Shown: positions 5,158-63,692 of the stretch, piece by piece
Position numbering within the stretch: the stretch's first letter is position 1
Layout: every line of letters begins with the position of its first letter
NCBI GenBank assembly: GCA_032622095.1
Contig: CP136066.1
Location: forward strand, 42,547,835 to 42,611,834
Length of the DNA stretch: 64,000 nt
DNA from: Siphonodentalium dalli
Taxonomy: Eukaryota > Mollusca > Scaphopoda > Gadilida > Siphonodentaliidae
Direction: 5' to 3'
Program-made: the position numbers and the translations under genes
Notes under the pieces: generated by a model
Databases searched by the model: none
Seen by the model: only the letters and a program-made list of their open reading frames with translations
What the model was told of the DNA's origin: nothing

Positions 5158-5358
5158 CTGATCTTTACATAGCTTTCCCGTTGCAAAGTAATGCGATTTC
5201 GGATGAGCCAAGTACATCCCTGAAACGGACGAGGCTGGGTCCATCGCTAGCGACTCCGTTAACGTAATGCCCACTTTATCAGCCTCCAGCAGTTTCCACA
5301 TGGTTAGTTTCTCTGTATGATCGGGCTGTGTGGGGTATCCAGCAGCTGGACGGATTCC
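5158..5358 (-). CDS. MTR: MTR exon w26: AdoMet-binding loop GIRPAAGYP
   Basis: Window residues 962-1028. [17 protein letters not shown] is the signature AdoMet-contact loop (R.A.GYP). [18 protein letters not shown] and [12 protein letters not shown] follow. The acceptor is CTTACAG and the donor CAG|GTGAGA. Related proteins add about 28 residues (V.DYA.RK, WLGP) in a further exon not seen here. Confidence 0.97.
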
Positions 5359-5571
5359 CTGTAAGTTTTTATACATTTATTGCATTGTTATGATGTAAAC
5401 TTAATAAACGGTAGATTCAAAATATTTATGTGTTTTGACTGAAAGAAAACTTCAATTTGTAAATCCAAACATATTGTTTTTTGGCTCAATCAGACCCTGT
5501 GTTCATATTGACTCCGTTGTTTATTATTAACAACTCTTCCATGACTGGAGCTTCCTGAAATTTTGTGAAAA

Positions 5572-5996
5572 CCCGGTGTCAATTTATTCTCTTATATATG
5601 TTAGTCTTCCATAGGCAGCCTCACATATATAAGAGAATACATTGGTCTAACAATATTTACCTTGTCCTCGTTAGCCAGTGCATTCTCTTATATATGGGAA
5701 TCTCCCAAAGGGAGCCTTGCATATATAAGAGTATACATTGGCCTAACAATATTTACCTTGTCCTTGTAAGCCAGTGCATTCTCTTATATATGCGAGTCTC
5801 CCATAGGAAGCCTTGTATATATAAGAGAATACCCTGTGCCAATGCATTCTCTTATAATATATAGGGAGCCTCGCATATATAAGAGAATACATTGGCCTAA
5901 CAATATTTACCTTGACATTGTAAGTGAGTGCATTCTCTTATATATTCGAGGCTCCCTATGGAAGACTCACATATATAAGAGAATGAACTGGCACAA
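5572..5996. repeat. Cluster of five hairpin modules
   Basis: Five tandem, diverged copies of the CATTCTCTTATATATG...CATATATAAGAGAATG hairpin near 5578, 5672, 5773, 5840 and 5926, separated by ATTGGCCTAACAATATTTACCTTG. Intron text upstream and C-rich sequence downstream (5996-6430) carry nothing else recognisable. Confidence 0.8.
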
Positions 5997-6430
5997 GATG
6001 ATATAAAAGTTCCTTTTCTGCTGATATTCACGATTTTAGTACCTTCTGAGGTGACATATTCTTACCTATCTTCCCACCCCACCCCCTTGTTGTATGGCAG
6101 GAGGGGCAGGTGCGATCTCTGCCCCTTAATCTAGGGGTGTATTAATTGCTGATGTTGATAATCAATCCGTTACATTAATAAACAATTAGTGTATCACTGA
6201 ATACATTACAAGATTATAGTTTAGCAAGGGAAGCCTAACTGTCTTAGTAAAGAGTAGGTCGGTATAACTTGTCGTACGTTGCTTGTTAAGTATGATAACT
6301 TTTTGTATTAAAATATAGGGTAACTGATTTCACTTGGGTTAAGCTCTTCATGTGAATTGTCATGATCAGCAATGAGATATGTTTTCTGAATAAGTGGGAC
6401 GAGTACTCTTTCGTTTATATAGAGGACATT

Positions 6431-6684
6431 CAAGCCTTGAAATAGTGTGTCTGTCATTTGCAGAATGAGGTCCCCAGAGGGTGAATTTAGTGATGCTACC
6501 CCACATAGCGGGCTAGCATCACCAAATTCAACCTCTGAGGACCTCATTCTGCTTACATCTCAGCAGAATGAGGTTCCCAGAGGGTGAATTTGGTTATGCT
6601 AGCCCAATATGCAGGGTAGCATCACTAAATACACCCTCTGGGAACCTCATTCTGCAAATGACAGACACACTATTTCAAGGCTTG
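6431..6684. mobile_element. hAT-type MITE B with 8-bp target duplication
   Basis: Ends CAAGCCTTGAAATAG and CTATTTCAAGGCTTG, flanked by a perfect AGGACATT duplication at 6423-6430 and 6685-6692. Inside are two head-to-tail palindromes of GAATGAGGTCCCCAGAGG. The 8-bp duplication points to the hAT superfamily. Confidence 0.85.
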
Positions 6685-6771
6685 AGGACATTATATCCAG
6701 AGGGCACGAACAGGTCAGACACCTTATGGTGAATAAAATTAATCAGTGAAAACATTAGTTTGGTTTTACTT

Positions 6772-7232
6772 CTGTGCAAGCCTGAGTTTAGTGTATCTGT
6801 CATTTGCAGAATGAGGTCCCCAGAGGGTGAATTTAGTGATGCTATCCCGCATAGCAGGCTAGCATCACTAAATTCACCCTCTGGGGACCTCATTCTGCTT
6901 AGGCCCTCAACTGCTATGGTAGATATAGGATCAGATTGAAGTTCCCCAGTTGAACTTGGTGATGTTCACCCATTGGGCACCTCGATTATGGACTTTACCT
7001 TCTGCAAATTAGGGGATATACCGGTAGAAACTTCCCAGATGGGAAAACGTAACTAAAAACAATGTTAATTTGATACTATAGATACCTCCAAGAAGATGAG
7101 GCCTAAGCAGAATAAGGTCTCCAGAGGGTGAATTTGGTGATGCTAGCCCGCTATGCGGGATAGGATCACTAAATTTACCCTCTGGAGACCTCATTCTGCA
7201 AATAACAGACACACTATTTGCAGGCTTGCTTC
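6772..7232. mobile_element. MITE B, long form
   Basis: Palindromic GAATGAGGTCCCCAGAGGGT modules at 6806-6900 and 7110-7200 flank a ~200-bp internal segment. It is also found at 4430-4630 and 18890-19080, which defines a longer family member. Confidence 0.7.
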
Positions 7233-7419
7233 TGTGAACAACGACACCCTTTTCAGTTACTTGTTGGCGAAACAAAAATAACTATACTCGTTCTTCTTTA
7301 ATCTTTGGAAAAGAATATCAACTGCACAGGAATAGACGTTTAATTAATGAAACTAAAAACACCTGTGACTAAACAAGTCTTGACATTTTGACCACCAGCA
7401 TGAGTAGCCTATGGATTAC

Positions 7420-7521
7420 CTGGTATTTAACTTTGAGGAGGTCGGTCGTGTCTAATCCCTCGTCTTTGGAGAATCCCCAGAGATCAGATCTAACTCTCGC
7501 ATGGAGTTCCTCAGCAAAAGC
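7420..7521 (-). CDS. MTR: MTR exon w25: AFAEELHARVRSDLWGF
   Basis: Window residues 928-961. AFAEELHARVRSDLWGF then LLKVKYQ is the conserved helix before the AdoMet loop. The acceptor is TTTTTCAG and the donor CCAG|GTAATC. Both ends are phase 0. A mariner-type MITE lies 36 bp upstream of the acceptor. Confidence 0.96.
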
Positions 7522-7556
7522 CTGAAAAATACCCACACTGATATATATCTAAGGTA

Positions 7557-7771
7557 CAGTAATGCCCTAAATAATCGACTCCTTTAATGGCAGCAGAATT
7601 ATGGGTAACTTTTCAGGATTTAGTCGGAAATATGGCTTGTTGCCATTCACCGGAAAGCTCTCAGTGAGAGCTTTCCGATGAATGGCAACAAGCCATATTT
7701 CCGACTAAATCCTGAAAAGTTACCCATAATTCTGCTGCCATTAAAGGAGTCGATTATTTAGGGCATTACTG
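7557..7771. mobile_element. Mariner-type MITE C, full palindrome
   Basis: Ends CAGTAATGCCCTAAATAATC and its complement, flanked by TA on both sides. The whole element is a near-perfect palindrome centred near 7664. The TA target suggests Tc1/mariner. It lies 36 bp upstream of the w25 acceptor. Confidence 0.88.
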
Positions 7772-7774
7772 TAG

Positions 7775-8280
7775 TAATACACAATTTCCAGCAATTTTGT
7801 CCAACCTGAGAGAGGATACTGTACTTCAATCTATGCTGAGCCATTATTGCATACACAAAACACTTAATTTTACCTATTTTGTTTTTTACTCAAATTGATC
7901 ATTTTCAACACAAAAACCATGACAGAGTGAATGTAAGCAAATAAGCTTCTTCCAATTAATAGAACTATGTTAGGGCTGAGAACAATTTGAAATAATTTTT
8001 TTTTTTAAATAAAAATATTTTGCAAGTGCAGATGACAGAATTCAGGGGAGAGAAATCGGGCTATTTTCCTGTAACCAAACACAGAGTTGGCCTCCACTGA
8101 TTAGGAAAATCATGTAACGTATCCAACTGTTTCCCTTTTTTTGTGAACTTTCCCAGTTTTGTAAAATAGTTAAACAGTCAAACCAGTAATGTCACCCCCC
8201 CCCCCCAGATACTTATTAGTCTATATTTCTGACCCCCTATAATCGATAAGTCGTGTACTGCAACCTTAAGTCCCCATCAG
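7775..8280. other. Intron sequence, no feature
   Basis: AT-rich with a C-tract at 8195-8207. Nothing supported. Confidence 0.4.
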
Positions 8281-8283
8281 GCA

Positions 8284-8890
8284 CGGGAATATGGTACCAG
8301 ACATTTGCATAATGAGGTCCCCAGAGGGTGAATTTATTGACGCTACCCTGCACAGTGGGCAAGCATCGCCAAAAATTCATCCTCCGGGAACCTCATGCTG
8401 CATGGCCTCATCTGCTATGCGAGACCCAGACACATATTTAAGTTCCCAAATGGTGAATATTGTGATGTGAACACATTGGGCACCTTGATTATGCAATGTG
8501 TCGTCTGACAATTTGAGGATATAGAGAAACTATTAAAAAAAAAAAAAAAAAAAAAAAAAATTCTTTCTGAAAAAACTTGTTAAATTGATAATAAAGATAC
8601 CTTAGAAAAGATGAGGCCTAATAAAAAAGAGATCCCCAGAGGGTGAATTTACTGATGCTTGCCTGCTGCGTGGAGGAGCTTCACTAAATTTATCCTCTGG
8701 GGACCTCATTCTGCTGCGTGGAGGAGCTTCACTAAATTTATCCTCTGGGGACCTCATTCTGCTGCGTGGAGGAGCTTCACTAAATTTATCCTCTGGGGAC
8801 CTCATTCTGCTGCGTGGAGGAGCTTCACTAAATTTATCCTCTGGGGACCTCATTCTGCAAATGTCCGCCATCATATTCTCAGGCTTGCAT
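8284..8890. mobile_element. MITE B with fourfold 48-bp internal expansion
   Basis: MITE B modules at 8310-8405 and 8625-8860. Within the second, a 48-bp unit (GCGTGGAGGAGCTTCACTAA...) is repeated four times, making a short ORF repeat in both strands. A long A-tract lies at 8534-8560. Confidence 0.75.
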
Positions 8891-8980
8891 AAGCCCATCA
8901 TGCTCTATTTATAGAGTTCAAGAAGAAAGGCACATAACTCTGGTGAGAATGGATGAAATCCATCATATGGGGGATATCTT

Positions 8981-9182
8981 TTAACCCTTTACCCAACAAA
9001 CCGGCCAAAAACGCCCAAACAAAGCTTCAACAGCCTAAAATATCTTCGGTCTGTCTCAATAACACCATACAAATATGGATATCATTGGAACCGGTTCATT
9101 GACCACATTGTGATGGTTACAGTTATGCCCTGTGCCAATGCATTCTCTTATATATGCGAGTCGACAATAGGTCGCCTCATAT
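8981..9182. mobile_element. TTAA MITE, CCGGCC shell, 5' half only
   Basis: TTAACCCTTTACCCAACAAA then CGGTCTGTCTCAATAACACC, running into the hairpin module, which is cut at about 9180. Complete relatives are at 30534, 54701 and 62473. Confidence 0.75.
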
Positions 9183-9841
9183 TGGACTATCACTCTACCA
9201 AACCAGAGGTGGGACAGACAGTATAAGGTAATTCATACATACTGCTATATACACCCCCATAACTAGGGGTCGGGGGCATAATAACTTGGTTCTTATATTT
9301 TATAAGAAGTCATATGCGCGTTTTATTATCAATATCCAAATAAGTTTTAAATTGTGATAAGGTAATGGTAAAATTATACATGTATTTATCCACCTCTCAC
9401 TGGCTCTAATGCCTACATAAACATAAACATAACGTAGCTTTATTTGGACATCATACCTTTATTATGTGAGTGCTACTTTCATGATGTAATTGCATAGTGA
9501 ATCAGGGATGTCAACCTGTCAAAATGATGACATTGTGATTTCGAAAAGTTTTTATCGTCTAAAATCCACCACAATTGATAAAAAAATTCATAAACAGATA
9601 TGTGTTTTCGCTCTATAACATCTATAAACCATTAGAACAACGCCAGTCTAGATAACTATAAACTTAACCAACCAACTATTTCACTCTTAGCTGCACTCCA
9701 GTTTTCCCCGTGTCATGAATACTAATCTGTTTGCTTGACCTCATAAATGTAAGGGCGTCATCGAAGTAACGAATTTAAAACTTTGGAAAATTACAGATTT
9801 CTCCCACAAGTTATGTGGTGGATAAATAAAATATGCAGCTA
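9183..9841. other. Intron sequence, no feature
   Basis: AT-rich, no repeat or exon recognised before the array at 9842. Confidence 0.4.
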
Positions 9842-11318
9842 ATGATGATATTAAAGTACTGACCTCGGCTAACCTGTCTGCTAAAGCCTTCACCATGATG
9901 ATATTAAAGTACTGACCTCGGCTAACCTGTCTGCTAAAGCCTTCACCATGATGATATTAAAGTACTGACCTCGGCTAACCTGTCTGCTAAAGCCTTCACC
10001 GTGATGATATTAAAGTACTGACCTCGGCTAACCTGTCTGCTAAAGCCTTCACTATGATGATATTAAAGTACTGACCTCGGCTAACCTGTCTGCTAAAGCC
10101 TTCACCGTGATGATATTAAAGTACTGACCTCGGCTAATCTGTCTCCTAAAGCCTTCACCATGATGATATTAAAGTACTGACCTCGGCTAACCTGTCTGCT
10201 AAAGCCTTCACCATGATGATATTAAAGTACTGACCTCGGCTAACCTGTCTGCTAAAGCCTTCAGTACTGACCTCGGCTAACCTGTCTGCTAAAGCCTTCA
10301 CCATGATGATATTAAAGGACTGACCTCGGCTAACCTGTCTGCTAAAGCCTTCAGTACTGACCTCGGCTAACCTGTCTGCTAAAGCCTTCAGTACTGACCT
10401 CGGCTAACCTGTCTGCTAAAGCCTTCACCATGATGATATTAAAGTACTGACCTCGGCTAACCTGTCTGCTAAAGCCTTCACCACGATGATATTAAAGTAC
10501 TGACCTCGGCTAACCTGTCTGCTAAAGCCTTCACCATGATGATATTAAAGTACTGACCTCGGCTAACCTGTCTGCTAAAGCCTTCACTATGATGATATTA
10601 AAGTACTGACCTCGGCTAACCTGTCTGCTAAAGCCTTCACCGTGATGATATTAAAGTACTGACCTCGGCTAACCTGTCTGCTAAAGCCTTCACCATGATG
10701 ATATTAAAGTACTGACCTCGGCTAACCTGTCTGCTAAAGCCTTCACCATGATGATATTAAAGTACTGACCTCGGCTAACCTGTCTGCTAAAGCCTTCAGT
10801 ACTGACCTCGGCTAACCTGTCTGCTAAAGCCTTCACCATGATGATATTAAAGGACTGACATCGGTTAACCTGTCTGCTAAAGCCTTCAGTACTGACCTCG
10901 GCTAACCTGTCTGCTAAAGCCTTCAGTACTGACCTCGGCTAACCTGTCTGCTAAAGCCTTCACCATGATGATATTAAAGTACTGACCTCGGCTAACCTGT
11001 CTGCTAAAGCCTTCACCACGATGATATTAAAGTACTGACCTCGGCTAACCTGTCTGCTAAAGCCTTCACCATGATGATATTAAAGTACTGACCTCGGCTA
11101 ACCTGTCTGCTAAAGCCTTCAGTACTGACCTCGGCTAACCTGTCTGCTAAAGCCTTCACCATGATGATATTAAAGTACTGACCTCGGCTAACCTGTCTGC
11201 TAAAGCCTTCAGTACTGACCTCGGCTAACCTGTCTGCTAAAGCCTTCACCATAATGATATTAAAGTACTGACCTCGGCTAACCTGTCTGCTAAAGCCTTC
11301 ACCATGATGATATTAAAG
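9842..11318 (-). repeat. Splice-donor array of exon w24 (53- and 37-bp units)
   Basis: About 30 tandem copies counting the real exon end. The standard 53-bp unit contains ATGGTGAAGGCTTTAGCAGA...GCCGAG (MVKALADRLAE) followed by the donor GTCAGTAC and intron bases. A 37-bp form lacks the CACCATGATGATATTAA part. A higher-order period of about 535 bp shows from a shared AAAGGACTGAC variant at 10311 and 10846. Nearly every unit keeps the donor. Confidence 0.95.
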
Positions 11319-11339
11319 TCATCCAGCTTCTCTTCATAC
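11273..11339 (-). CDS. MTR: MTR exon w24: MVKALADRLAE, seed of a donor array
   Basis: Window residues 905-927, YEEKLDDFNIIMVKALADRLAE. The acceptor is TTATTCAG and the donor CGAG|GTCAGT. The last ~35 coding bases plus donor are repeated about 29 more times across the following 1.4 kb of intron. I chose the copy adjoining the unique 5' part, because only it has the acceptor. Confidence 0.95.
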
Positions 11340-11381
11340 CTGAATAAAATATTTAGGAAATTGCTTGAATATACATCAACA

Positions 11382-11878: not shown

Positions 11879-11886
11879 GTATAAAC

Positions 11887-21127: not shown

Positions 21128-21203
21128 CTGGTGGTGTCTCTGTATTCCAGTCGATGAGTATCTTCTTCTCTCTGGCTTTGTCCAGTGACAAATATTTCCT
21201 ATC
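21128..21203 (-). CDS. MTR: MTR exon w20: AdoMet domain, with GC donor
   Basis: Window residues 723-748, DRKYLSLDKAREKKILIDW. The acceptor is TTGTAG. The required phase 1 end falls at CCAG|GCATGT, a non-canonical GC donor. The nearest GT would give phase 2 and break the frame with exon w21. A TA-flanked MITE begins 6 nt into the intron. Confidence 0.9.
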
Positions 21204-21441: not shown

Positions 21442-21540
21442 CTTCAGTGAATCATAGTGTTCCTCACGGATCTCCTCATATTCGTCACTTATATCCTCGA
21501 TGAATTCATCCTTCACGTTAGCGTCTCTCAAGGCAGAACA
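21442..21540 (-). CDS. MTR: MTR exon w19: linker to AdoMet domain, [15 protein letters not shown]
   Basis: Window residues 690-722. [19 protein letters not shown] then [14 protein letters not shown] is the linker into the reactivation domain. The acceptor CTTTCAG|TGTTCTGCC is the nearest of about 36 tandem copies. The authentic exon differs from the array copies (RDA instead of TDG). The donor is AAG|GTTGGT. Confidence 0.96.
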
Positions 21541-23815
21541 CTGAAAGATATTAAAAACCATGATGAAATACCATCAATCAAGGCAGAACACTGAAAGAAA
21601 TGAAAAACCACGATGAATTAATCCTTCACATTACCGTCAGTCAAGACAGAACACTGAAACATATTAAAAACCACGATGAATTAATCCTTCACATTACCGT
21701 CAGTCAAGGCAGAACACTGAAAGAAATGAAAAACCTCGATGAATTCATCCTTCACATTACCGTCAGTCAAGGCAGAACACTGAAAGAAATGAAAAACCAT
21801 GATGAATTCATCCTTCACATTACCGTCAGTCAAGGCAGAACACTGAAAGATATTAAAAACCACGATGAATTAATCCTTCACATTACCGTCAGTCAAGACA
21901 GAACACTGAAACATATTAAAAACCACGATGAATTAATCCTTCACATTACCGTCAGTCAAGGCAGAACACTGAAAGAAATGAAAAACCTCGATGAATTCAT
22001 CCTTCACATTACCGTCAGTCAAGGCAGAACACTGAAAGAAATGAAAAACCATGATGAATTCATCCTTCACATTACCGTCAGTCAAGGCAGAACACTGAAA
22101 GATATTAAAAACCTCGATGAATTCATCCTTCACATTACCATCAGTCAAGGTAGAACACTGAAAGATATTAAAACCATGATGAATTCATCCTTCACATTAC
22201 CGTCAGTCAAGGCAGAACACTGAAAGAAATGAAAAACCATGATGAATTCATCCTTCACATTACCGTCAGTCAAGGCAGAACACTGAAAGAAATGAAAAAC
22301 CATGATGAATTCATCCTTCACATTACCATCAGTCAAGGTAGAACACTGAAAGATATTAAAAACCACGATGAATTCATCCTTCACATTACCATCAGTCAAG
22401 GCAGAACACTGAAAGAAATGAAAAACCTCGATGAATTCATCCTTCACATTACCATCAGTCAAGGTAGAACACTGAAAGAAATGAAAAACCTCGATGAATT
22501 CATCCTTCACATTACCGTCAGTCAAGGCAGAACACTGAAAGAAATGAAAAACCTCGATGAATTCATCCTTCACATTACCGTCAGTCAAGGCAGAACACTG
22601 AAAGAAATGAAAAACCTCGATGAATTCATCCTTCACATTACCGTCAGTCAAGGCAGAACACTGAAAGAAATGAAAAACCTCGATGAATTCATCCTTCACA
22701 TTACCGTCAGTCAAGGCAGAACACTGAAAGAAATGAAAAACCATGATGAATTCATCCTTCACATTACCATCAGTCAAGGTAGAACACTGAAAGATATTAA
22801 AAACCTCGATGAATTCATCCTTCACATTACCATCAGTCAAGGTAGAACACTGAAAGATATTAAAACCATGATGAATTCATCCTTCACATTCCCGTCAGTC
22901 AAGGCAGAACACTGAAAGAAATGAAAAACCATGATGAATTCATCCTTCACATTACCATCAGTCAAGGTAGAACACTGAAAGATATTAAAAACCATGATGA
23001 ATTCATCCTTCACATTACCATCAGTCAAGGTAGAACACTGAAAGAAATGAAAAACCATGATGAATTCATCCTTCACATTACCATCAGTCAAGGTAGAACA
23101 CTGAAAGATATTAAAACCATGATGAATTCATCCTTCACATTACCATCAGTCAAGGTAGAACACTGAAAGATATTAAAACCATGATGAATTCATCCTTCAC
23201 ATTACCGTCAGTCAAGGCAGAACACTGAAAGATATTAAAACCATGATGAATTCATCCTTCACATTACCGTCAGTCAAGGCAGAACACTGAAAGATATTAA
23301 AAACCTCGATGAATTCATCCTTCACATTACCGTCAGTCAAGGCAGAACACTGAAAGAAATGTAAAACCATGATGAATTCATCCTTCACATTACCATCAGT
23401 CAAGGTAGAACACTGAAAGAAATGTAAAACCACGATGAATTCATCCTTCACATTACCATCAGTCAAGGTAGAACACTGAAAGAAATGAAAAACCATGATG
23501 AATTCATCCTTCACATTACCATCAGTCAAGGTAGAACACTGAAAGAAATTAAAAACCATGATGAATTCATCATTCACATTACCATCAGTCAAGGTAGAAC
23601 ACTGAAAGAAATGAAAAACCATGATGAATTCATCCTTCACATTACCATCAGTCAAGGTAGAATACTGAAAGATATTAAAAACCTCGATGAATTCATCCTT
23701 CACGTTACCGTCAGTCAAGGTAGAACACTGAAAGATATTAAAAACCTCAATGAATTCATCCTTCACGTTACCGTCAGTCGAGGCAGAACACTGAAAGAAA
23801 TGAAAAACCACATGT
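21541..23815 (-). repeat. Splice-acceptor array of exon w19 (63-bp units)
   Basis: About 36 tandem units upstream of exon w19. Each reads TTTCTTTCAG or TAATATCTTTCAG, then TGTTCTGCCTTGACTGACGG TAATGTGAAGGATGAATTCATC, i.e. the acceptor plus the first coding bases (CSALTDGNVKDEFI). The unit nearest the exon is only 50 bp. Units of 62 and 63 bp alternate, breaking any long frame. Long ORFs on both strands are by-products of the period. Confidence 0.95.
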
Positions 23816-33002: not shown

Positions 33003-33140
33003 ACTGCAATCACCTTCGTGAGTGGTCCCCAGATGACATTCAGGTCGGGGAAATAAGATTTTATTACTATATTTACCTTCATGAGTGGTCCCCAGACGAC
33101 AATTCAGGTCGGGGAAATAAGATTTTATTATTATATTTAC
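33003..33140 (-). repeat. Splice-donor array of exon w14 (two extra copies)
   Basis: Two further copies of the exon 3' end plus donor: CCCCGACCT...GGGGACCACTCATGAAG|GTAAATATA, spaced 62 and 65 bp from each other and from the true exon end. The second copy has ACGAAG|GTGATT instead. Confidence 0.85.
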
Positions 33141-33239
33141 CTTCATGAGTGGTCCCTCGATAACATTTAGAGGTCGGGGATATAAGGTCTTATTACACCT
33201 CGCTTCTTCTGTATCATCTACTACATATTTATCAATGCC
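33141..33239 (-). CDS. MTR: MTR exon w14: cap domain start, YPRPLNVIEGPLMK
   Basis: Window residues 479-511. GIDKYVVDDTEEAR then YPRPLNVIEGPLMK opens the four-helix cap that shields cobalamin. The acceptor is TTTACAG and the donor AAG|GTAAAT. The 3' end of this exon with its donor is duplicated twice more just downstream in the intron. Confidence 0.96.
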
Positions 33240-33489: not shown

Positions 33490-34116
33490 TATACACACTG
33501 TCTATACACCATCACTGTCTATAAACCATCACTGTCCATACACCATCACTGTCCATACACCATCACTGTCCATACACCATCACTGTCGATACACCATCAC
33601 TGTATATACACCATCACTATACACCATCACTGTCTATAAACCATCACTGTCCATACACCATCACTGTCCATACACCATCACTGTCCATACACCATCACTG
33701 TCTATACACCATCACTGTCTATTCACCATCACTGTCTATAAACCATCACTGTCCATACACCATCACTGTCTATACACCATCACTGTCTATAAACCATCAC
33801 TGTCCATACACCATCACTGTCCATACACCATCACTGTCTATAAACCATCACTGTACATACACCATCACTGTCCATACACCATCACTGTCTATACACCATC
33901 ACTGTCTATTCACCATCACTGTCTATAAACCATCACTGTCCATACACCATCACTGTCTATTCACCATCACTGTCTATAAACCATCACTGTCCATACACCA
34001 TCACTGTCCATACACCATCACTGTCCATACACCATCACTGTCTATACACCATCACTGTCTATTCACCATCATTGTCTATACACCATCACTGTCTATACAC
34101 CATCACTGTCTATACA
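33490..34116 (+). repeat. 17-bp minisatellite CTGTCTATACACCATCA, block 1
   Basis: About 36 copies with C/T and A variants (CTGTCCATACACCATCA). It continues at 35139 after an inserted element. Confidence 0.9.
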
Positions 34117-35138
34117 CAGGGCCTGATCCAGGTTTTATTTGGGAGGACACCTCCCGATGACCGAAGGTCATCCCCGACTGCCAAAGGCAGGAGCCGGGGA
34201 GCGTATGAGAGGGGTTGCAGGGAATTTTTTTGAAATTTCAATGCTCTGAGAGTGATCTTGGGCATATCTGAAGGACGATTTTCATTTTTTAACCAAAGAG
34301 AATTTTATACTTTCAGTAGCTATTAATATGACCAGAGTCACTTAAGCTAGAAAACAAAATTTATTTAATACATGAACTCAATTTATATTTATACACAAAA
34401 GAAAAGACACAATGAACCAACATATTTATTTCAACTTACAAGATAACATTGTTTTTAACAGAATTAAACAAACACACATAATGATAACATATTAATATAT
34501 TATCATAATAATGCATAATATAATCTAATAATGTATAATATGCCCCACTGTATGACTGAGATGAAAAAGATAGAATGAACAGTCCTGCAACATTTTTCAT
34601 TATTTCTTATTTCTAGTTTTGTAGTTAAACACTCTCAAAATTATGTTGTGTTGTTCTATTTGTTTCCAATTGATATACCGGTATATGTTAGGGCCCTAGT
34701 AATTAGAACTAATCTCTACGTTAATTATTCATTTGGTATTATGAGATCCCACCTGATAACCAGGTTGATTTGATCAAATTGTCACTGTTCCTATACTGTA
34801 TTGTGTAATTTCGCTTTAATTTGATTGAAATACTAAAGTCTGAATGGTAACAAACCTGAACTATTTGAAGTTTTCACAGATGAAAGCTAGATAGAACCAA
34901 ACATACTTTACAGTATGATTCCAACTGTTAAACTTAAATCTTTTTGTAACTTAAATGTCTTATGTCAATATATATAAATACATAAATGATGTGTATCTTG
35001 TTATAATATGAATTGGGACCTGAATATTTAAAAAAAAAAAAAAAAAAAAAAAAATTGCCTTCAATTTGTTTGGGCGCCCAAACTCAATGTCCCCAAACCC
35101 GGTATACCGGGGTCGAAAACAGGCTGGGTCAGGCCCTG
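34117..35138. mobile_element. hAT-like element inserted in the 17-bp minisatellite
   Basis: Inverted ends CAGGGCCTGATCCAGG and CTGGGTCAGGCCCTG bound a 1022-bp, AT-rich insertion without coding capacity, with an A-tract at 35031-35054. The same minisatellite resumes on the far side. The target duplication is blurred by the repeat itself. Confidence 0.75.
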
Positions 35139-35310
35139 ATACACCATCACTGTCCATACACCATCACTGTCTATACACCATCACTGTTGATACACCATCA
35201 CTGTCTATACACCATCACTGTCTATACACCATCACTGTCTATACACCATCACTGTCTATACACCATCACTATACACCATCACTGTCTACACACAATCACT
35301 GTCTATACCT
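35139..35310 (+). repeat. 17-bp minisatellite, block 2
   Basis: Continuation of the array at 33490-34116. 35311-35705 is intron sequence with nothing recognised. Confidence 0.88.
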
Positions 35311-37650: not shown

Positions 37651-37904
37651 CAAGCCTTGAAATAGTGTGCCTGTCATTTGCAGAATGAGGTCCCCAGAGG
37701 GTGAATTTAGTTATGCTACCCCGCACAGCGGGCTAGCATCACTAAATTCACCCTCTGGGGACCTCATTCTGCTTACACCTCAGCAGAATGAGGTTCCCAG
37801 AGGGTGAATTTGGTGATGCTAGCCCGCTATGCGGGGTAGCATTACTAAATTCACCCTCTGGGAACCTCATTCTGCAAATGACAGACACACTATTTCAAGG
37901 CTTG
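37651..37904. mobile_element. hAT-type MITE B with 8-bp target duplication
   Basis: CAAGCCTTGAAATAGTGTGC to CACTATTTCAAGGCTTG, flanked by TGTGTGAT at 37643-37650 and 37905-37912. A double palindrome like 6431-6684. Confidence 0.87.
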
Positions 37905-38206: not shown

Positions 38207-38347
38207 CTGTGCATATGTCAGGAGTTTCTCTGTCGCATCAGCATCTTTATTCCATATAACCATCTCACACAGCTCTAATAACTCTGGTTTGATATCAGTA
38301 TATACAGGCAAGCACCCAGCATTCACAATACCCATGTCTAAACCAGC
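38207..38347 (-). CDS. MTR: MTR exon w12: end of folate barrel, DMGIVNAG
   Basis: Window residues 402-448. [11 protein letters not shown] closes the folate barrel and [21 protein letters not shown] leads to the next module. The acceptor CATTGTAG|GCTGGTTT is the first of about 15 tandem copies of itself extending into the intron. The donor is ACAG|GTAAAT. Confidence 0.97.
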
Positions 38348-38850
38348 CTACAATGTGAATTAGATTCATGTCTAAACCAGCCTACAATGTGAATTAGATT
38401 CATGTCTAAACGAGCCTACAATGTGAATTAGACTCAAGTTTAAACCAGCCTACAATGTGAATTAGATTCATGTTTAAACCAGCCTACAATGTGAATTAGA
38501 TTCATGTTTAAACCAGCCTACAATGTGAACTAGATTCATGTCTAAACCAGCCTACAATCTGAATTAGACTGATGTTTAAACCAGCCTACAATGTGAATTA
38601 GACTCATGTTTAAACCAGCCTACAATGTGAATTAGATTCATGTCTAAACCAGCCTACAATGTGAATTAGATTCATGTCTAAACCAGCCTACAATGTGAAT
38701 TAGATTCATGTCTAAACCAGCCTACAATGTGAATTAGATTCATGTCTAAATCAGCCTACAATGTGAATTAGATTCATGTCTAAATCAGCCTACAATGTGA
38801 ATTAGATTCATGTCTAAACCAGCCTACAATGTGAATTAGACTCATGTTTA
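38348..38850 (-). repeat. Splice-acceptor array of exon w12 (34-bp units)
   Basis: About 15 copies of a 34-bp unit. On the minus strand it reads AATCTAATTCACATTGTAG|GCTGGTTTAGACATG: acceptor plus the first 15 coding bases of exon w12 (AGLDM). More diverged, shortened units run on to about 39030. Some copies change TCTAAA to TTTAAA but keep the AG acceptor. Confidence 0.93.
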
Positions 38851-39159
38851 AAGGCCTCCAATAACAATTAGATTCATGTCTAAATATCCACAATAACAAT
38901 TAGACTCATTGTCTAAATTCATAGAATAACAATTAAGACTCATAGTCTAAAATCCTACAATAACAATTAAGACTCCCGTCTAGACAATGGTACAGTACAA
39001 ATTGAAACTCATACATTTCACAAGCCAACCATAAGAATTAAACACATGACTAAATAAGGTATAATATGTGAATTGAAAATATTTGTTTGCAATTTTATCA
39101 CTAAATTTTATATTTTACGTAAAAATGAATTATGATGTTTAATGTAAAGGACTACACAC

Positions 39160-41424: not shown

Positions 41425-42511
41425 ATGTTTTAACGTTTTATTGGTCCATACCGATGCGTATATTAAATGTTTTATTGGTCCATACCGATGCGTATATTAA
41501 ATGTTTTATTGGTCCATACCGATGCGTATATTAAATGTTTTATTGGTCCATACCGATGCGTATATTAAATGTTTTATTGGTCCATACCGATGCGTATATT
41601 AAATGTTTTATTGGTCCATACCGATGCGTATATTAAATGTTTTATTGGTCCATACCGATGCGTATGTTTTATGGGTCCATACCGATGCGTATGTTTTATT
41701 GGTCCGTACCGATGCGTATGTTTTATTGGTCCGTACCGATGCGTATGTTTTATTGGTCCGTACCGATGCGTATGTTTTATTGGTCCATACCGATGCGTAT
41801 ATTAAATGTATTATTGGTCCATACCGATGCGTATATTAAATGTTTTATTGGTCCATACCGATGCGTATGCTTTATTGGTCCATACCGATGCGTATGTTTT
41901 ATTGGTCCGTACCGATGCGTATGTTTTATTGGTCCGTACCGATGCGTATATTTTATTGGTCCATACCGATGCGTATGTTTTATTGGTCCGTACCGATGCG
42001 TATGTTTTATTGGTCCGTACCGATGCGTATGTTTTATTGGTCCATACCGATGCGTATGTTTTATTGGTCCATACCGATGCGTATATTAAATGTTTTATTG
42101 GTCCATACCGATGCGTATATTAAATGTTTTATTGGTCCATACCGATGCGTATGCTTTATTGGTCCATACCGATGCGTATGTTTTATTGGTCCGTACCGAT
42201 GCGTATGTTTTATTGGTCCGTACCGATGCGTATATTTTATTGGTCCATACCGATGCGTATGTTTTATTGGTCCGTACCGATGCGTATGTTTTATTGGTCC
42301 ATACCGATGCGTATGTTTTATTGGTCCATACCGATGCGTATGTTTTATTGGTCCATACCGATGCGTATGTTTTATTGGTCCATACCGGTGCGTAAATTTG
42401 GGCTCAACTGCAGAATGTTCAATATCGGACCGAGTCAAAGAGATATTGAATTTGAACATTGTGCAGTCTCGCCCAAAAATACTCACCTGTATGGACCAGT
42501 AAAACATTTAA
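41421..42511. mobile_element. TTAA element whose terminal repeat is amplified into an array
   Basis: Left end TTAAATGTTTTAACGTTTTA and right end GTAAAACATTTAA. The terminal sequence ATGTTTTATTGGTCCATACC GATGCGTA is repeated about 35 times as 34-bp and 27-bp units (41440-42395). At the right end is a hairpin (TGCAGAATGTTCAATATC and complement) and a single inverted copy GTATGGACCAGTAAAACATT. Multiple repetitive ORFs are artefacts. Confidence 0.8.
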
Positions 42512-45806: not shown

Positions 45807-45992
45807 CTGGCCAACTTCATCAAAAGCCATAAGTATGACACCAGCGCCATACTGTCTAATGAGTCGAGCTTTCTTCAGAAATTCCTCCTCCCCCTCTTTG
45901 AGACTGATGCTGTTGACGATACATTTACCCTGAGTACACTTCAATCCTGCTTCTATCACAGCAAAGTTAGATGAGTCTATACATAATGGCAC
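45807..45992 (-). CDS. MTR: MTR exon w9: folate domain, CIDSSNF and NSISLKEGE
   Basis: Window residues 241-302, the longest folate-domain exon. It has [31 protein letters not shown] and [11 protein letters not shown]. The authentic acceptor TTAACAG|GTGCCATT is the nearest copy of a long tandem array of the same junction that fills the adjacent intron. The donor is CCAG|GTAAGT, a perfect consensus. Confidence 0.97.
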
Positions 45993-46870
45993 CTGTTAAA
46001 CACATAATGGTACCTGTTAAACACATAATGGCACCTGTTAAATACATAATGGCACCTGTTAAATCTAGATGTGAGTCTATACATAACGTCACCTGTTAAA
46101 TACATAATGGCACCTGTTAAATATAGATGTGAGTCTATACATAACGTCACCTGTTAAACACATAATGGCACCTGTTAAATACATAATGGTATCTGTTAAA
46201 TATAGATGTGAGTCTATACATAACGTCACCTGTTAAATACATAATGGCACCTGTTAAATACATAATGGCACCTGTTAAATCTAGATGTGAGTCTATACAT
46301 AATGGCACCTGTTAAATACATAATGGCACCTGTTAAATACATAATGGTACTTGTTAAACACATAACACACCTCTTAAATATAGCTGTGAGTCTATACATA
46401 ATGCCACCTGTTAAACACATAACGTCACCTGTTATACACAACGCACCTGTTAAATATAGATGTGAGTCTATAAATAATGGTACCTATTAAATACATAATG
46501 GCACCTGTTAAATACATAATGGCACCTGTTAAATATAGATGTTAGTAGATACATAATGGCACCTGTTAAATACATAATGGCACCTGTTAAATACATAACA
46601 ACGCCTGTTAAATATAGATGCCAGTCCATACACAGGCATAGGCACCTGTTGAATTAAGATATGATCAAACTTGAGTCTATATATAACGGCACCTGTTAAA
46701 CGTATGTATAACAGCACCTGTTAAATTAAGAATATGATGAAACTTGAGGCACCTGTTAAAGTATGTATAATGACATCTGTTAAATATAGATATGAACAAA
46801 CTTGAGTCTATACATAATGGCACATGTTAAAAGTATGTATAATGGCAGCTATTAAATTAAGATATGATCA
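45993..46870 (-). repeat. Splice-acceptor array of exon w9 (21- and 37-bp units)
   Basis: About 35 tandem units on the minus strand. Each contains TTTAACAG|GTGCCATTATGTAT: the acceptor and the first coding bases of exon w9 (VPLC). Long units (37 bp) also carry ATAGACTCA (IDS). A remnant (TAATGACACCTGTTAAATTT) survives at 48096-48145 on the far side of the Helitrons. Confidence 0.93.
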
Positions 46871-53975: not shown

Positions 53976-53981
53976 TGGCAT

Positions 53982-54235
53982 CAAGCCTTGAAATAGGGTG
54001 TCTGTCATTTGCAGAATGAGGTCCCCAGAGGGTGAATTTAGTGATGCTACCCCGCATAGCGGGCTAGCATCACCAAATTCACCCTCTGGGAACCTCATTC
54101 TGCTGAGGTGTAAGCAGAATGAGGTCCCCAGAGGGTGAATTTGGTGATGCTAGCCCGCTATGCGAGGTAGCATCACTAAATTCACCCTCTGGGGACCTCA
54201 TTCTGCAAATGACAGACACCCTATTTCAAGGCTTG
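53982..54235. mobile_element. hAT-type MITE B with 8-bp target duplication
   Basis: CAAGCCTTGAAATAGGGTGT to CCCTATTTCAAGGCTTG, flanked by ATTGGCAT at 53974-53981 and 54236-54243. A double palindrome. Confidence 0.88.
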
Positions 54236-57425: not shown

Positions 57426-57433
57426 AAACCTAC

Positions 57434-57862: not shown

Positions 57863-57869
57863 TTTTTAT

Positions 57870-59090
57870 TACATATCTCCGTATCATAGTAAGTTGACTC
57901 ACAATCGTACATCTCCGGTACAGAAAATGTGAATTTAATTGAGTTTTAACGTAATTTTAGGGTTAACGCAACAATCAGACAGGGAGCCCGTCTATCCGCT
58001 AGTGACCTTGGCCCATCTTGATGAGTTTGAAATTAAATTCTGTGCCTCGACAAACATATTCTTGAAATGAAACTACTTGAATGAATCATCTCATCGATTG
58101 ATCGCTTATTGTTTCTTTATTGTCGTGACTGAAAAGGTAAAAATAGTAACAGCGAGAACCAGTCTAACAACACTGAATTAAATAGTTCCGTCGACAGATT
58201 GCACTAGTGCGATTCTGAGAATTATCACACGCCTGGAAACTCGTGCGATCATGCGAATTACGTTGATAGATATGTAATAAATTAGTATTCTTCATTTATA
58301 ATATTAATTCATTATTATTAATTAATTTCAAATATGAAGCAGATAAATCTGCAAGTGGCCGAACAACACACTAGGTATAATTTTGTATAGTAAGCCCATA
58401 AATGCAACACAAAATATGTTAATTGCATATGTAGATTGAGTTCCATGAACACATTCTTTCTGTCGTGTTAAACCCATCACACACCAGTGCATTATTGCTA
58501 AGCACTTTGCCTTCCGTGACAAAATACTCAGTGTGCAGGTGTTTGTACTTTAGGCAAGTCATGAAAGGCGAAAGTCTTAAGAATCAGACATGTGTCATAA
58601 TTTTTGTCTTGCAAGGCGAAAGTCTCGCAGTGTGTATTGTACGCAAGACATTTCTCTTAGCACCATTACATGTATCTATAATTAAAGAAGCAGCAAGTGG
58701 AAACCAGGAATGTCATTTGGCAGTAATATGATGCCATATACTAGTATGTCAATATCATTTGTGCCAGGTTGGCATGTTTGTATGCTTTCTATCATCTGGT
58801 GATGACATTTTTCAGTATAATGAAGAATGCATCGTATAAAGTATGAGTTATAAGTCAAGAAAGGCAGTGTATTAAATTCATAGCTGGTTAGGTTATGGTA
58901 AAACCTCTATCCTGTAAGTGTCATATAGCCAGGTGTGTTGGTCATGTGGGTGGCCTCTGTGTATAGCCACGGTGTATGCAGGCACAGTCAGGTTGTCTGT
59001 AGAATATTTTCAAATGCCCACAACATATTTGAACTAATTGAGGTGAAGATAGACTAAACCATTCAGAAGAAGATCACACCTTCATATCGC
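57870..59090. other. Large intron block, featureless
   Basis: I see a small repeated AGGCGAAAGTCTNNNNA at 58566 and 58614 and no exon or known repeat. Confidence 0.4.
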
Positions 59091-59094
59091 AGAC

Positions 59095-59400
59095 GGGGCC
59101 TCGGTGGCTCAATCGGTTAGGGGTACCACTCCAAGCCGTTTCGCCCTCCAGCGCTGGCGATAAGGGTTCAAATCCACATGTTTCCATTGTGGACTTTGTA
59201 ACTCGAAATCGTTATCTGGTGGAGTTGCCAGTTAATCGCCGGTGGTTTGCCGCACATGGTTGACGAGTTTATCACCCATTGAAATCACTGTTAGATTAGT
59301 CGCAAGTGTGCGGATTTCCTCCACCACTAAAACTGGCAATGTCGTGATATGGCCTTAGTGGCTAAAGCGACAATAAACCCCAATCAATCAATCAATCAAT
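59095..59400 (+). mobile_element. tRNA-derived SINE, type 1, with 12-bp duplication
   Basis: Box A-like TGGCTCAATCGGTTAGG, box B GGGTTCAAATCC, a body GTTAATCGCCGGTGGTTTGC and AAACTGGCAATGTCGTGATA, and a tail (AATC)n. Flanked by CATATCGCAGAC at 59083-59094 and 59401-59412. This is a retroposon and not a tRNA gene. Confidence 0.9.
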
Positions 59401-59487
59401 CATATCGCAGACTATTATATTCCATAAATTCAAATCATATTAATTAGAGTTATTGACCCCAATAAAATCTCAAAGTACAACAAATAT

Positions 59488-59866
59488 AAGAAGCAAACAG
59501 CTTCAACAGCCTAAAATATCTTCGGTCTGTCTCAATAACACCATACAAATATGGATATCATTGGAACCGGTTCATTGACCACATTGTGATGGTTACAGTT
59601 ATGCCCTGTGCCAATGCATTCTCTTATATATGCGAGTCGACCATAGGTCGCCTCGCATATATAAGAGAATGCATTGGCCTAAAAAAAAAAATTCTTACAT
59701 TTTTTAACAATTTTTATAATATTTTTCTACATTCTTTGACAATTTTATCATTTTTAATATGTGTTAAGCCAATGCATTCTCTTATATATGCGAGGCGACC
59801 TATGGTCGACTCGCATATATAAGAGAATGCATTGGCACAGGGCCGTTCTGTTGGGTAAAGGGTTAA
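59488..59866. mobile_element. TTAA MITE, CCGGCC shell, left end truncated
   Basis: It begins inside the shell (AGCAAACAGCTTCAACAGCC), has two opposed hairpins (59609-59680 and 59768-59839) and ends TTGGGTAAAGGGTTAA. Confidence 0.8.
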
Positions 59867-60119
59867 ATCAAACTTAGTCAAAATTGGATGGATTTTATTG
59901 AAGTAATGTTGATAACGTGATGGATGAACTAAAAGGCATAATTCCAATTTCCATGATCAAACTTTGGGATGAAGCGCCTTTCCAATTAGGCCAAATCATT
60001 TGCATGTCAAGGTGATAAACCAAATTTGGCCAATATTGGACTCAGTTATTTTTAGTTATAATGCTGCAATTGCAACAAAAAATTGGTCAATTTGGCCACC
60101 AACAACATTAACTCTGAAA

Positions 60120-60200
60120 ATAGACACCCTCGTCTGACCATTATCGACACCCTCGTCTGACCGTTATCGACACCCTCATCTGACCGTTATAAACCATCTG
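60120..60200 (+). repeat. 23-bp triplication
   Basis: GACACCCTCGTCTGACCGTTAT is repeated three times, 46 bp downstream of the w5 donor. It does not include the splice site. The remaining intron 60320-60780 has nothing recognised. Confidence 0.8.
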
Positions 60201-60245
60201 TCGAGATGGAAAAACTCACCCAAAAATCACTAGTGGAGGAAATAC

Positions 60246-60313
60246 CTTATATGTTCTGGTGCAGTTCCACAGCAGCCGCCAATGATGTTCAGCAAACCAT
60301 CCGCTGCAAAGGT
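60246..60313 (-). CDS. MTR: MTR exon w5: paired zinc cysteines (GGCCGT)
   Basis: Window residues 107-129. [17 protein letters not shown] holds the adjacent cysteines that complete the zinc site (Cys310 and Cys311 in E. coli MetH). The acceptor is GTTTCAG and the donor TAAG|GTATTT, phase 2. All three zinc ligands are therefore intact in this gene. Confidence 0.97.
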
Positions 60314-60786
60314 CTGAAACATAATTGCTCATGTATGAGAACGAAAAACAGGATTATGATCTTATCATAGATTTTCCAGTGTACCCATAATGCAGTAGCT
60401 GATGTAGACCTATGTATTTATAATAAATGACCAAAGTAACATCCTTTGAACTTCAACAAATTTAAACGACTCTTGGAAATCTTAGCAGGACCAGTTATAA
60501 TTTATACTCATGAAAGAAAGAACAATTTCAACACAAGTCTATTTTTATGTGTGAATTCCATCCTAAATAACTTCTTTTTTTCTAAATCAAATTGAAATGT
60601 TTTTGTTAATGTTGTTGTCATTATTATGGTCATGTATTTTCAATCTCATGTATGAGAACTCTCCTAGTTTGGTTTTAATGGAAAAAAACTGACCATCCAT
60701 AAATGAAAACGATGTAGAAAAATTGCTTGAGAAGACAAGTTTTCATGTTACGGCCCTAACTAATAAACGCACTTAAATCTACTCAC

Positions 60787-60848
60787 TTCAATACAGCTAG
60801 CCATCATTTCTGGAGTTTCATCATAATCCCCGAATGTGTTCGGCAACC
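60787..60848 (-). CDS. MTR: MTR exon w4: NAGLPNTFGDYDETP segment
   Basis: Window residues 86-106, LPNTFGDYDETPEMMASCIE. This is the conserved substrate-proximal loop of the homocysteine barrel. The acceptor is TTTTAG and the donor GAA|GTGAGT. Phase 1 in, phase 0 out. Confidence 0.95.
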
Positions 60849-61025
60849 CTAAAATTTTTCATAAAAGTTGATGGCAAAGCATCTAACAGCCTTATTCAAG
60901 ATGCATCGAAGTCATAAAAAATACAATGCGACTGCCTGGAAATTGTATATTGCGTAATCTATAACTTGATATCAGTTTAACTTCATGCACTGCTTTCTCT
61001 TCATTTTCATCATTAAAATTATTTA

Positions 61026-61305
61026 CAGTAATGCCCTAATTAATCGACTCCATAACCACAGCAGAATTATGGGTAACTTTTCATGATTTAGTCGGAAATA
61101 TGGCTTGTTGCCATTCATCGGAAAGCTCTAGAATTATGGGTAACTTTTCAGGATTTAGTCGGAAATATGGCTTGTTGCCATTCATCGGAAAGCTCTTGGG
61201 GAGAGCTTTCCGATGAATGGCAACAAGCCATATTTCCGACTAAATCCTGAAAAGTTACCCATAATTCTGCTGTGGTTATGGATTCGATTAATTAGAGCAA
61301 TACTG
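61026..61305. mobile_element. Mariner-type MITE C with duplicated arm
   Basis: CAGTAATGCCCTAATTAATC to ATTAGAGCAATACTG, flanked by TA. The segment GAATTATGGGTAACTTTTCA...GAAAGCTC is present twice on the left arm and once on the right, so the palindrome is unequal. Confidence 0.85.
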
Positions 61306-61475
61306 TAGTACCATAAAAACTTTCAGAGAGACAAAAGCTCTAGATTTTCTTCCCATGGTCTACAGGTGATATTTATTTCAGTGCTATATTGACATGGTTG
61401 TTCAGAGACCATACATGTAGGTATGTTTTCGGATACCTCTTACCAAATTTTTGGGTACAAGTGAGCCATGTCCAT

Positions 61476-61705
61476 TTAACCCTTACATGACTGGCTTCCT
61501 AAAACCCTGTGCCAATGCATTCTCTTATATATGAATATATGTATAAATACATTGGCCTAACAAAATATTTACTGTGAGCTTGTAAGCCAGTGCATACCCT
61601 TATATATGCCAGGCTTCCTATGGGACACTGACATATATAAGAGAATGCACTGGAAAAGGGTATTTAATGCTGCACCAGCACAGCTCCACATCATGATAGG
61701 GTTAA
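61476..61705. mobile_element. TTAA MITE, CATGATGGG-type shell, reversed
   Basis: TTAACCCTTACATGACTGG to CATCATGATAGGGTTAA, with one deleted hairpin (61508-61560) and one diverged hairpin (61585-61656). Confidence 0.75.
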
Positions 61706-61796
61706 TAAATCAAACAACTATAACCAACCATTAGAGAAAGAATTGCGATTAATTTTATGTTTTATAAACATTTTAACACATATATAATTACTGTAC

Positions 61797-61897
61797 CTGC
61801 ATTTGGGTAGCATATAGTTAACGCTTTACTGTTCTTGCTGACAGCTTCGATGAACGGCCGCATTTCACGAGCTCCAAGTGCACAGTTCAGACCAATG
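61797..61897 (-). CDS. MTR: MTR exon w3: first zinc cysteine (GLNCALG)
   Basis: Window residues 52-86. The motif [16 protein letters not shown] carries the first of three zinc-binding cysteines that activate homocysteine (equivalent to Cys247 of E. coli MetH). It ends ICYPNA with a split glycine codon. The acceptor is TTTTCAG and the donor GCAG|GTACAG. Confidence 0.97.
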
Positions 61898-61969
61898 CTG
61901 AAAATGAAGGCAAATGAGCACTTTAACCCATTCTTTACTAAAAATTATCTTCACGAGTCGCTCCCTTAG

Positions 61970-62223
61970 CAAGCCTTGAAATAGGGTGTCTGTCATTTGC
62001 AGAATGAGGTCCCCAGAAGGTGAATTTAGTGATGCTACCCCGCATAGCAGGCTAGCACCACCAAATTCACCCTCTGGGGACCTCATTCTGCTTACACCTC
62101 AGCAGAATGATGTCCCCAGAGGGTGAATTTGGTTATGCTAGCCCGCTATGTGGGGTAGCATCACTAAATTCACCCTCTGGGGACCTCATTCTACAAATGA
62201 CAGACACCCTATTTCAAGGCTTG
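61970..62223. mobile_element. MITE B, double palindrome
   Basis: CAAGCCTTGAAATAGGGTGT to CCCTATTTCAAGGCTTG, same structure as 53982-54235. The flanking 8 bp no longer match. 73 bp upstream of exon w3. Confidence 0.8.
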
Positions 62224-62472
62224 AATCCTTCTGCACTTGTATTATCTGTCTCCTTATTTTTCCTGAACATCATTCCAGATGAGTAAGTAGACGAGTCCAA
62301 TGTATACCTTTATAATTGATAATATGATTCACTTAGTAAAGACAGGATTAAATAAACAAGAGGCCAATCCTGATCAGCGAATGTGAAACCCATACTCAAA
62401 ATAAGAATCCCAAATAAACAATAGACCTTTGATTTTGGAAAACGTACCAGCGCTCTGTTGAGCATGCATATT

Positions 62473-62846
62473 TTAACCCTTTACCCAACAAACCGGCCAA
62501 AACCGGCCAAATAAAGCTTCAACAGCCTAAAATATCTTCGGTCTGTCTCAATAGAACCATACAAATATGGATATCATTGGAACCGGCTCCTTGACCACAT
62601 TGTGATAGTTACAGTTATGCCCTGTGCCAATGCATTCTCTTATATATGCGAGTCGACCATAGGTCGCCTCGCATATATAAGAGAATGCATTGGCCTAAAA
62701 AAACTTTTTTTAACACTTTTTACCATTTTTTCTTTAATATGTGTTAAGCCAATGCATTCTCTTATATATGCGAGGCGACCTATGGTCGACTCGCATATAT
62801 AAGAGAATGCATTGGCACAGGGCCGTTCTGTTGGGTAAAGGGTTAA
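62473..62846. mobile_element. TTAA MITE, CCGGCC shell, complete
   Basis: TTAACCCTTTACCCAACAAA to TTGGGTAAAGGGTTAA, hairpins at 62625-62695 and 62750-62820 with a short spacer. Confidence 0.87.
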
Positions 62847-62994
62847 ACACTGGGTGCACTTCTTTCGTAAACAGGAAACAAAATGTATGATGTTTTTCAT
62901 GTGGATTATACATTGGGAATTGTTTATGATAGTTTTTTTTTATATTTGCATTATAGGAAATATAGAACATTTAAATAGCTTCCTTGTTACTCAC

Positions 62995-63089
62995 CACATA
63001 GCATCAGCATGAGACACGCTGATGAGAAAGGCTTCTGTAGTTTGTCCTGACAACGTTCTCCCACTTTTATCAACTATCGTTCCTGAAAT
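62995..63089 (-). CDS. MTR: MTR exon w2: homocysteine barrel, [15 protein letters not shown]
   Basis: Window residues 21-52. The strand-loop [17 protein letters not shown] followed by ISVSHAD is typical of the MetH homocysteine domain. The acceptor is TTTTGTAG and the donor TG|GTGAGT (phase 2). The split codon completes a cysteine with the next exon. Confidence 0.95.
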
Positions 63090-63095
63090 CTACAA

Positions 63096-63625
63096 AATAA
63101 TTGAGTTAAAGATAGAGTATCCAGTCATGTTCATGCAAGATGATTATCGTCTTTACAGCAAATACCGTCTGTCTGTCCGTCTGTTTGCGATTTTCTCCCA
63201 GACCCCTGGATTTCAACCAAATTTGGGGGGGGGGGGGGGTGACTCAGGGTACCCTAGCGGATGTTAAAATGGCATTAGATTTTCCAAATTTTGATTAAAA
63301 AAAATTCTAGTCAAAATGTTTTAAAGATCAAAATGTGCGCACAAAGGTCCCCTACGCCGCTGAAAATATTTGGGAGTCTGTTTCAGCTAGTCTTTTATAT
63401 TATTATTGCAAAATAAACATCCTTTGAACAATCCAGACGGCACTAACTCCTGAAAAAAACTTTAGTCAGGACCAGTTTTAAAACTCATCCAAGAGATTCA
63501 TGAGTGGAAGCCATGATCCAAATCATATACAAATCGGATTATATTTCCTGAGTTAATGCGGTAGGCGAAGAGATGGACAGACATATGCCCACAATCATTA
63601 TCAAACCAAAAAAGTACACTTGATA
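63096..63625. other. Intron with G-tract and repeat H-like fragment
   Basis: A run of about 15 G at 63224-63238 and a GTAGGCGAAGAGATGGACAGACAT fragment. No exon. Confidence 0.45.
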
Positions 63626-63632
63626 TACTCAC

Positions 63633-63692
63633 GAACACAGGACACTCTCTACCTTCTTCTTTGAATAACTCCTTCACAGCAAAAATAGCAGC
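63633..63692 (-). CDS. MTR: MTR exon w1: homocysteine-binding barrel segment
   Basis: Window residues 1-20, beginning AAIFAVKELF and ending CPVF. It matches the helix before the SGTIVD strand of the homocysteine barrel. The acceptor is TATTTCAG and the donor TTC|GTGAGT; phase 0 at both ends. It is the first exon visible, so upstream coding sequence is outside the window. Confidence 0.9.

Follow-up and report, generated by a model that had tools for sequence, protein, structure and literature searches.

We found that five of the 26 exons recognised in the methionine synthase gene (MTR) of the scaphopod mollusc Siphonodentalium dalli carry a minisatellite array across one of their splice junctions. 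The gene was studied in a stretch of 64,000 nucleotides of contig CP136066.1 that we call the window, and positions below are window positions unless another locus is named. In a sample of ten other protein families from the same genome, 14 more junctions carry such an array. Judged from their sequence, these arrays are probably minisatellites of the kind called mirages, in which duplications that span a splice junction would be tolerated as the outermost site still works and would then expand as intron.

The window contains an animal, cobalamin-dependent MTR on the minus strand. Alignment of E. coli MetH to the window identified 26 exons, w26 to w1, between positions 5158 and 63692. Joined together, these exons comprise 3084 nt (1028 codons) in a single open frame without a stop codon and match five Pfam domains (Met_synt_B12, Pterin_bind, S-methyl_trans, B12-binding_2, and B12-binding). 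The model is partial, with the gene start beyond w1 and the final part beyond w26. The donor of w20 at position 21128 is GC and is the sole MTR donor that is not GT. An Rfam scan of the window yielded no matches.

Three of the junction arrays are located at acceptors (w9, w12, and w19) and two at donors (w14 and w24), all on the minus strand. Each consists of head-to-tail copies of a unit that joins part of the exon to part of the intron and, as the original prediction had proposed, includes the splice site; the further statement of that prediction that the arrays start exactly at an exon edge was not borne out, since they begin 14-56 bp within the exon. The acceptor of exon w9 (45807-45992) is the outermost copy of an array at 45979-46806 that reaches 14 bp into the exon and has two spacings, 21 and 37 bp. 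Its unit comprises 14 bp of exon and 7 bp of intron when the exon is extended against the array consensus, the procedure used for all five arrays, and AG is intact in 26 of its 27 core copies. Exon w12 (38207-38347) has an array at 38333-38982 with a 34 bp unit (15 bp exon and 19 bp intron) and AG in all 15 core copies. At exon w19 (21442-21540), an array at 21569-23811 contains 35.7 copies of a 63 bp unit formed by 17 bp of intron and 46 bp that match the first 46 bp of the exon, with AG intact in all 35 core copies. Tandem Repeats Finder (TRF) set the boundary of this array at 21569 because the copy nearest the exon is truncated, and this truncated copy links the array to the exon. The donor array of exon w14 (33141-33239) is at 33012-33196 and is diverged, with 2.9 copies of a 64 bp unit (56 bp exon and 8 bp intron by extension, the exon part being about 44 bp by eye) and GT in both of its two core copies. 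The donor array of exon w24 (11273-11339) is at 9842-11319, 47 bp of it inside the exon, with a unit of 47 bp exon and 6 bp intron, spacings of 53 and 37 bp, and GT in 30 of 30 core copies.

Whether five such arrays exceed chance depends on the null, and the footprint and founding-unit nulls disagree. Circular shifts of the array footprints along MTR overlapped a mean of 6.2, 5.4, and 3.4 junctions in three array classes versus the 5 seen; the script that made these shifts scored only 3 MTR junctions itself because its TRF rows for w9 and w19 end before the junction. Arrays fill 13-21% of the MTR locus across the three classes, so that overlap of a junction by a footprint is not rare. An array holds at most about one unit of exon and the founding unit must therefore overlap the junction. 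With a null based on this founding unit, the expected number of junction arrays is 1.87 for 26 arrays (P = 0.033) and 0.86 for the 12 arrays of high copy number (P = 6e-4). This test excluded the row at 46688-46806, which belongs to the w9 array, and used manually set units for w9, w12, w14, w19, and w24. Because MTR had been picked for the pattern, a test on other genes was needed.

To do this we searched the same genome (2.23 Gb in 9 contigs) with ten protein families and took each exon with 500 bp of flank on either side. All matches were used for carbamoyl-phosphate synthase (30), Na/K-ATPase (9), pyruvate carboxylase (9), phosphorylase (13), glycine dehydrogenase (14), aconitase (21), and ValRS (5), and 19 matches to oxoglutarate dehydrogenase gave 17 exons. 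For myosin (23 of 85 matches) and MRP (4 of 6) a subset was picked before the sequence was seen, avoiding near-copies. Removal of four paralogous exons (L125, L129, L130, and L131) from the resulting 145 left 141. Junctions in the sample are predictions from a matrix derived from MTR, those at arrays being the ones inspected individually, and arrays were called with TRF. Duplicates in overlapping stretches (L012 at 1064 and L139 at 1) were removed from the count; some fetched stretches overlap, leading to a slight overcount of intron length. The scored class of arrays has units of at least 20 bp and a score of at least 100.

The 141 exons contained 14 independent junction-spanning arrays, six at acceptors and eight at donors, and a further 24 arrays of the scored class that are confined to introns. 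Each junction array was inspected copy by copy (L006, L015, L021, L029, L045, L051, L055, L058, L066, L099, L101, L107, L128, and L148). They occur in 4 of 30 exons of carbamoyl-phosphate synthase, 4 of 17 of oxoglutarate dehydrogenase, 3 of 13 of phosphorylase, 1 of 23 of myosin, 1 of 17 of aconitase, and 1 of 5 of ValRS, with none in Na/K-ATPase (9 exons), MRP (4), pyruvate carboxylase (9), or glycine dehydrogenase (14). With the founding-unit null, 3.93 of the 38 scored arrays are expected at junctions (P = 7.6e-6); the first half of the sample gave 9 versus 2.07 and the second half 5 versus 1.86 (P = 0.027). When all units of at least 12 bp were included, 14 of 64 arrays were at junctions versus 4.61 expected (P = 8.6e-5; second half 5 versus 2.03, P = 0.042), and the strict class gave 10 of 22 versus 1.69 (P = 1.2e-6; second half 2 versus 0.62, P = 0.12). 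Every one of the 14 units contains exon sequence, in 13 of them at least 10 bp; with a minimum of 10 or 15 bp of exon in the unit, 13 arrays were found versus 3.09 or 2.41 expected. Per kb of opportunity there were 0.91 arrays at junctions, 0.168 in introns, and 0 in exons. None of the 38 scored arrays is wholly inside an exon (27.5 kb of exon), where 4.6 are expected at the intron rate (P = 0.01); one weak array below the class cut-off, 17 bp x 1.9 copies, is inside an exon. These results, which rest on the founding-unit null, suggest that founding duplications are approximately fivefold denser at exon edges than in introns. MTR is not an exceptional gene in this respect, with arrays at 5 of 26 exons versus 14 of 141 in the sample (P = 0.18).

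Two candidates were left out of the junction count. An automatic call had placed L141 at an acceptor; on reading of the sequence, its 31 bp array, at 225-543 of that stretch, proved to stop 9 bp short of the acceptor of an aconitase exon. The array repeats CTGTCAG, which resembles an acceptor, but contains no exon sequence, and it was classed as intron-only, which lowered the count. In L031 the array ends at the acceptor without crossing it.

We measured unit anatomy in 19 curated arrays, the five from MTR and the 14 from the sample. In all 19 the unit, 21-122 bp long, spans the exon-intron boundary, and acceptors (9) and donors (10) are both represented. Exon sequence makes up a mean of 0.686 of the unit versus an even share of 0.5 (P = 0.0015). 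The share is 0.674 when the intron parts of two boundary cases, L066 and L099, are manually set to 5 and 6 (both being 0 automatically), and 0.658 when the 14 sample arrays are taken by themselves (P = 0.015); for L107 the junction was shifted to the second copy for these measurements. The median intron part is 31 bp for acceptor units and 8 bp for donor units (P = 0.011), approximately the lengths of the two splice signals. Thus, the units are rich in exon yet carry a roughly full splice signal. The unit length is a multiple of three in 3 of the 19 arrays (P = 0.08 for so few).

Of the 131 inner copies in eight arrays, 129 retain the splice dinucleotide. In each of these arrays, however, at least about half of the positions are equally well preserved, and the inner copies therefore appear to be neutral copies whose splice dinucleotides are no better conserved than about half of their positions. 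If the nearest inner copy were used at the MTR junctions, the predicted outcome is a stop codon at w9, w12, w19, and w24 and a frameshift at w14.

Paralogous genes give some indication of array history. The myosin paralogues L066 and L150 have in common an array of 2.1 copies of 67 bp and the aconitase paralogues L128 and L129 also share an array; because the paralogues have them in common, these arrays predate the gene copies. The array of L148 is absent from the same intron position of the older paralogue L149. It lies in an intron common to both paralogues. No new intron in a former exon was seen in MTR, where joining the 26 exons gives one open frame alignable to E. coli MetH. The last unit of L148 is longer, and w9 and w24 have two spacings each, as if these three junctions had perhaps been duplicated more than once.

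Tandem repeats that span an exon-intron boundary were named mirages in the lancelet gene Adh3 and are also described from TnC, the globins BflGb6 and BflGb9, and PGBD5 (PMC3087553, PMC3902484), so the pattern does have a named description, contrary to what had been thought. According to these reports, unit lengths are 10-72 bp in Adh3 and extend up to about 160 bp, both boundaries are affected, and normal splicing is undisturbed (PMC3087553, PMC3902484). The arrays of S. dalli are like them in having a unit across the boundary of an acceptor or a donor, in mostly keeping the inner AG or GT, and in being intronic (PMC3087553, PMC3902484), and they appear to be mirages, a kind known from lancelets. 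They differ in their non-lancelet host with a genome of 2.23 Gb, in reaching up to 36 copies, and in having been sampled across eleven gene families. The lancelet genome is near 0.5 Gb. A search of the S. dalli genome for the molluscan haemocyanin domain returned no match, its control being likewise without a match, and comparing one myosin exon with solved structures did not point to a taxon. Normal splicing was tested for the lancelet mirages, whereas the arrays described here are known from sequence alone, with the exon frame intact. Variation in array length between haplotypes or tissues is a hallmark of the lancelet mirages. We found no genome-wide survey of junction-spanning arrays outside lancelets in the open-licence literature.

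Other known systems share some of these features. The minisatellite of human IFI6 (6-16) is at a donor, repeats the splice site, and is reported to have multiple splice donors (Turri 1995, PMC4526556). Its units reportedly serve as alternative donors, whereas in the five MTR arrays splicing at an inner copy would be expected to disrupt the frame. In human segmental duplications, minisatellite units at exon-intron boundaries are reported to alter introns, with 27 intron modifications; these repeats differ from one paralogue to another and can give rise to new introns, whereas in S. dalli old introns enlarge (PMC2812944). Intron gain by tandem duplication is also documented (potato RdRp; Hellsten; Gao and Lynch), and there too a duplication that crosses the boundary passes on the splice signals (PMC4974935, PMC3443670). 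By contrast, we see no new intron here, and exons and frame are unchanged.

In the reading that we favour, a short head-to-tail duplication would by chance have spanned a splice junction, making each copy a cassette of exon edge and splice site, as is seen in the units. The outermost, exon-side copy, presumably the one used, would keep the old exon and the frame that we observe, leaving the mature mRNA unchanged and the other copies as intron. The array would then grow and homogenise as any minisatellite does, and duplications wholly within an exon would be purged by selection, to judge from their absence in the scored class. Because the founding density is about fivefold higher at exon edges and the units are mostly exon, the simplest account is that such duplications may arise more often in exon DNA and that only those carrying a whole splice site would survive. 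We prefer toleration of such duplications through a working outermost site, the better supported of the two explanations that had been offered, because of the single open frame, the lack of arrays within exons (0 of 38), and the match between intron parts and splice signal length.

Several points weigh against this reading. Among the inner copies in MTR, 79 of 101 score at least as high as the site used; site strength therefore cannot explain the choice, and position must be what favours the exon-side site. That the outermost copy is used was itself deduced from the DNA. Nearly all of the sample arrays are in five top genes and four of the ten families have none, a spread that is within chance (P = 0.26). 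The second half of the sample is weak by itself (P = 0.03-0.04, or 0.12 in the strict class), and both the score cut-off and the unit cut-off were chosen with the arrays already known. Finally, array cover is flat: arrays cover 16 of 282 positions at a distance of 2 bp from the junction and 16 of 277 positions at a distance of 450 bp (Fisher P = 1).

This flat cover, along with the 5 arrays in MTR versus 3.4-6.2 expected from footprints, is what would be seen if there were no special process and no excess, with the junctions of a minisatellite-rich genome being struck like any intron base and the survivors being those that spare the mRNA. We regard this as unlikely, since the founding unit must overlap the junction and 14 such arrays were seen versus 3.9 expected, all with exon sequence in the unit and 13 with at least 10 bp. 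The idea that random minisatellites should rarely straddle junctions failed for footprints. Junction cover equals intron cover and intron-only arrays are common, 34 of the 39 arrays in the MTR locus lacking homology to MTR exons at E 0.01 and 5 having it, both of which count in part against the original prediction. That prediction also raised a process that starts at splice sites. A process at splice sites or transcribed exon edges, such as breaks linked to R-loops or polymerase pausing, could make the founding duplications, and the fivefold excess at edges, the exon-heavy units, and the signs of repeated, differently sized events at single junctions (w9, w24, and L148) leave room for it. Acceptors and donors are struck alike (9 and 10 of 19), which speaks against a process bound to a single type of site, and the units cross the junction uninterrupted with no sequence sign of an RNA or spliced intermediate. 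We regard such a process as unlikely.

We think it very unlikely that the arrays are retained for useful alternative splice forms made from inner copies, as reported for the human IFI6 minisatellite. The retention of GT or AG in nearly all inner copies, which score like real sites, agrees with this idea, but few unit lengths are divisible by three, splicing at the nearest inner copy would disrupt the frame or introduce a stop in all five MTR arrays, and the splice dinucleotides show no higher conservation than roughly half of the remaining positions. An assembly artefact is similarly hard to credit; a single assembly is the basis of this work, but copies differ among themselves, units differ between loci, and arrays are held in common by paralogous exons of both myosin and aconitase.

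Other repeats were noted in the window and in the sample. An intronic array at 41435-42394 has a 27 bp unit in about 27 copies without homology to MTR exons, and two distinct intronic arrays at 33496-34117 and 35139-35308, about 1 kb apart, have a 17 bp unit in common. A 103 bp palindromic element starting GCAGAATGAGG, probably a small mobile element, recurs at 6460-6655, 37680-37875, 54011-54206, and 61999-62192 as well as in L012 and L108, and a piece of it forms a perfect 48 bp x 4.1 array at 8663-8858. An aconitase intron (L159, G000 C6:77894223-77896982) contains a 319 bp x 8.7 array. At approximately 274.2-275.5 Mb of G000 C4 there is a series of nearly identical exons for the myosin head, and in several of them the matched stretch contains one TAG.

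With 14 of 282 sampled junctions (about 1 in 20) carrying an array, mirages are not confined to a few lancelet genes, and the sample provides a first count of how frequent they are in one genome. Because founding duplications are denser at exon edges, their origin becomes a measurable question. Introns in which dozens of nearly identical splice sites compete, many of them scoring as well as the used site, offer a natural test of the way in which the spliceosome chooses the exon-side site. We put forward, tentatively and as a possibility that we hold somewhat doubtful, that exon edges throughout the genome are preferred places for short tandem duplications to form, that selection keeps those that carry whole splice cassettes, and that introns grow by multiplying their splice sites. 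If true, exon edges would be a source of both minisatellites and intron length.

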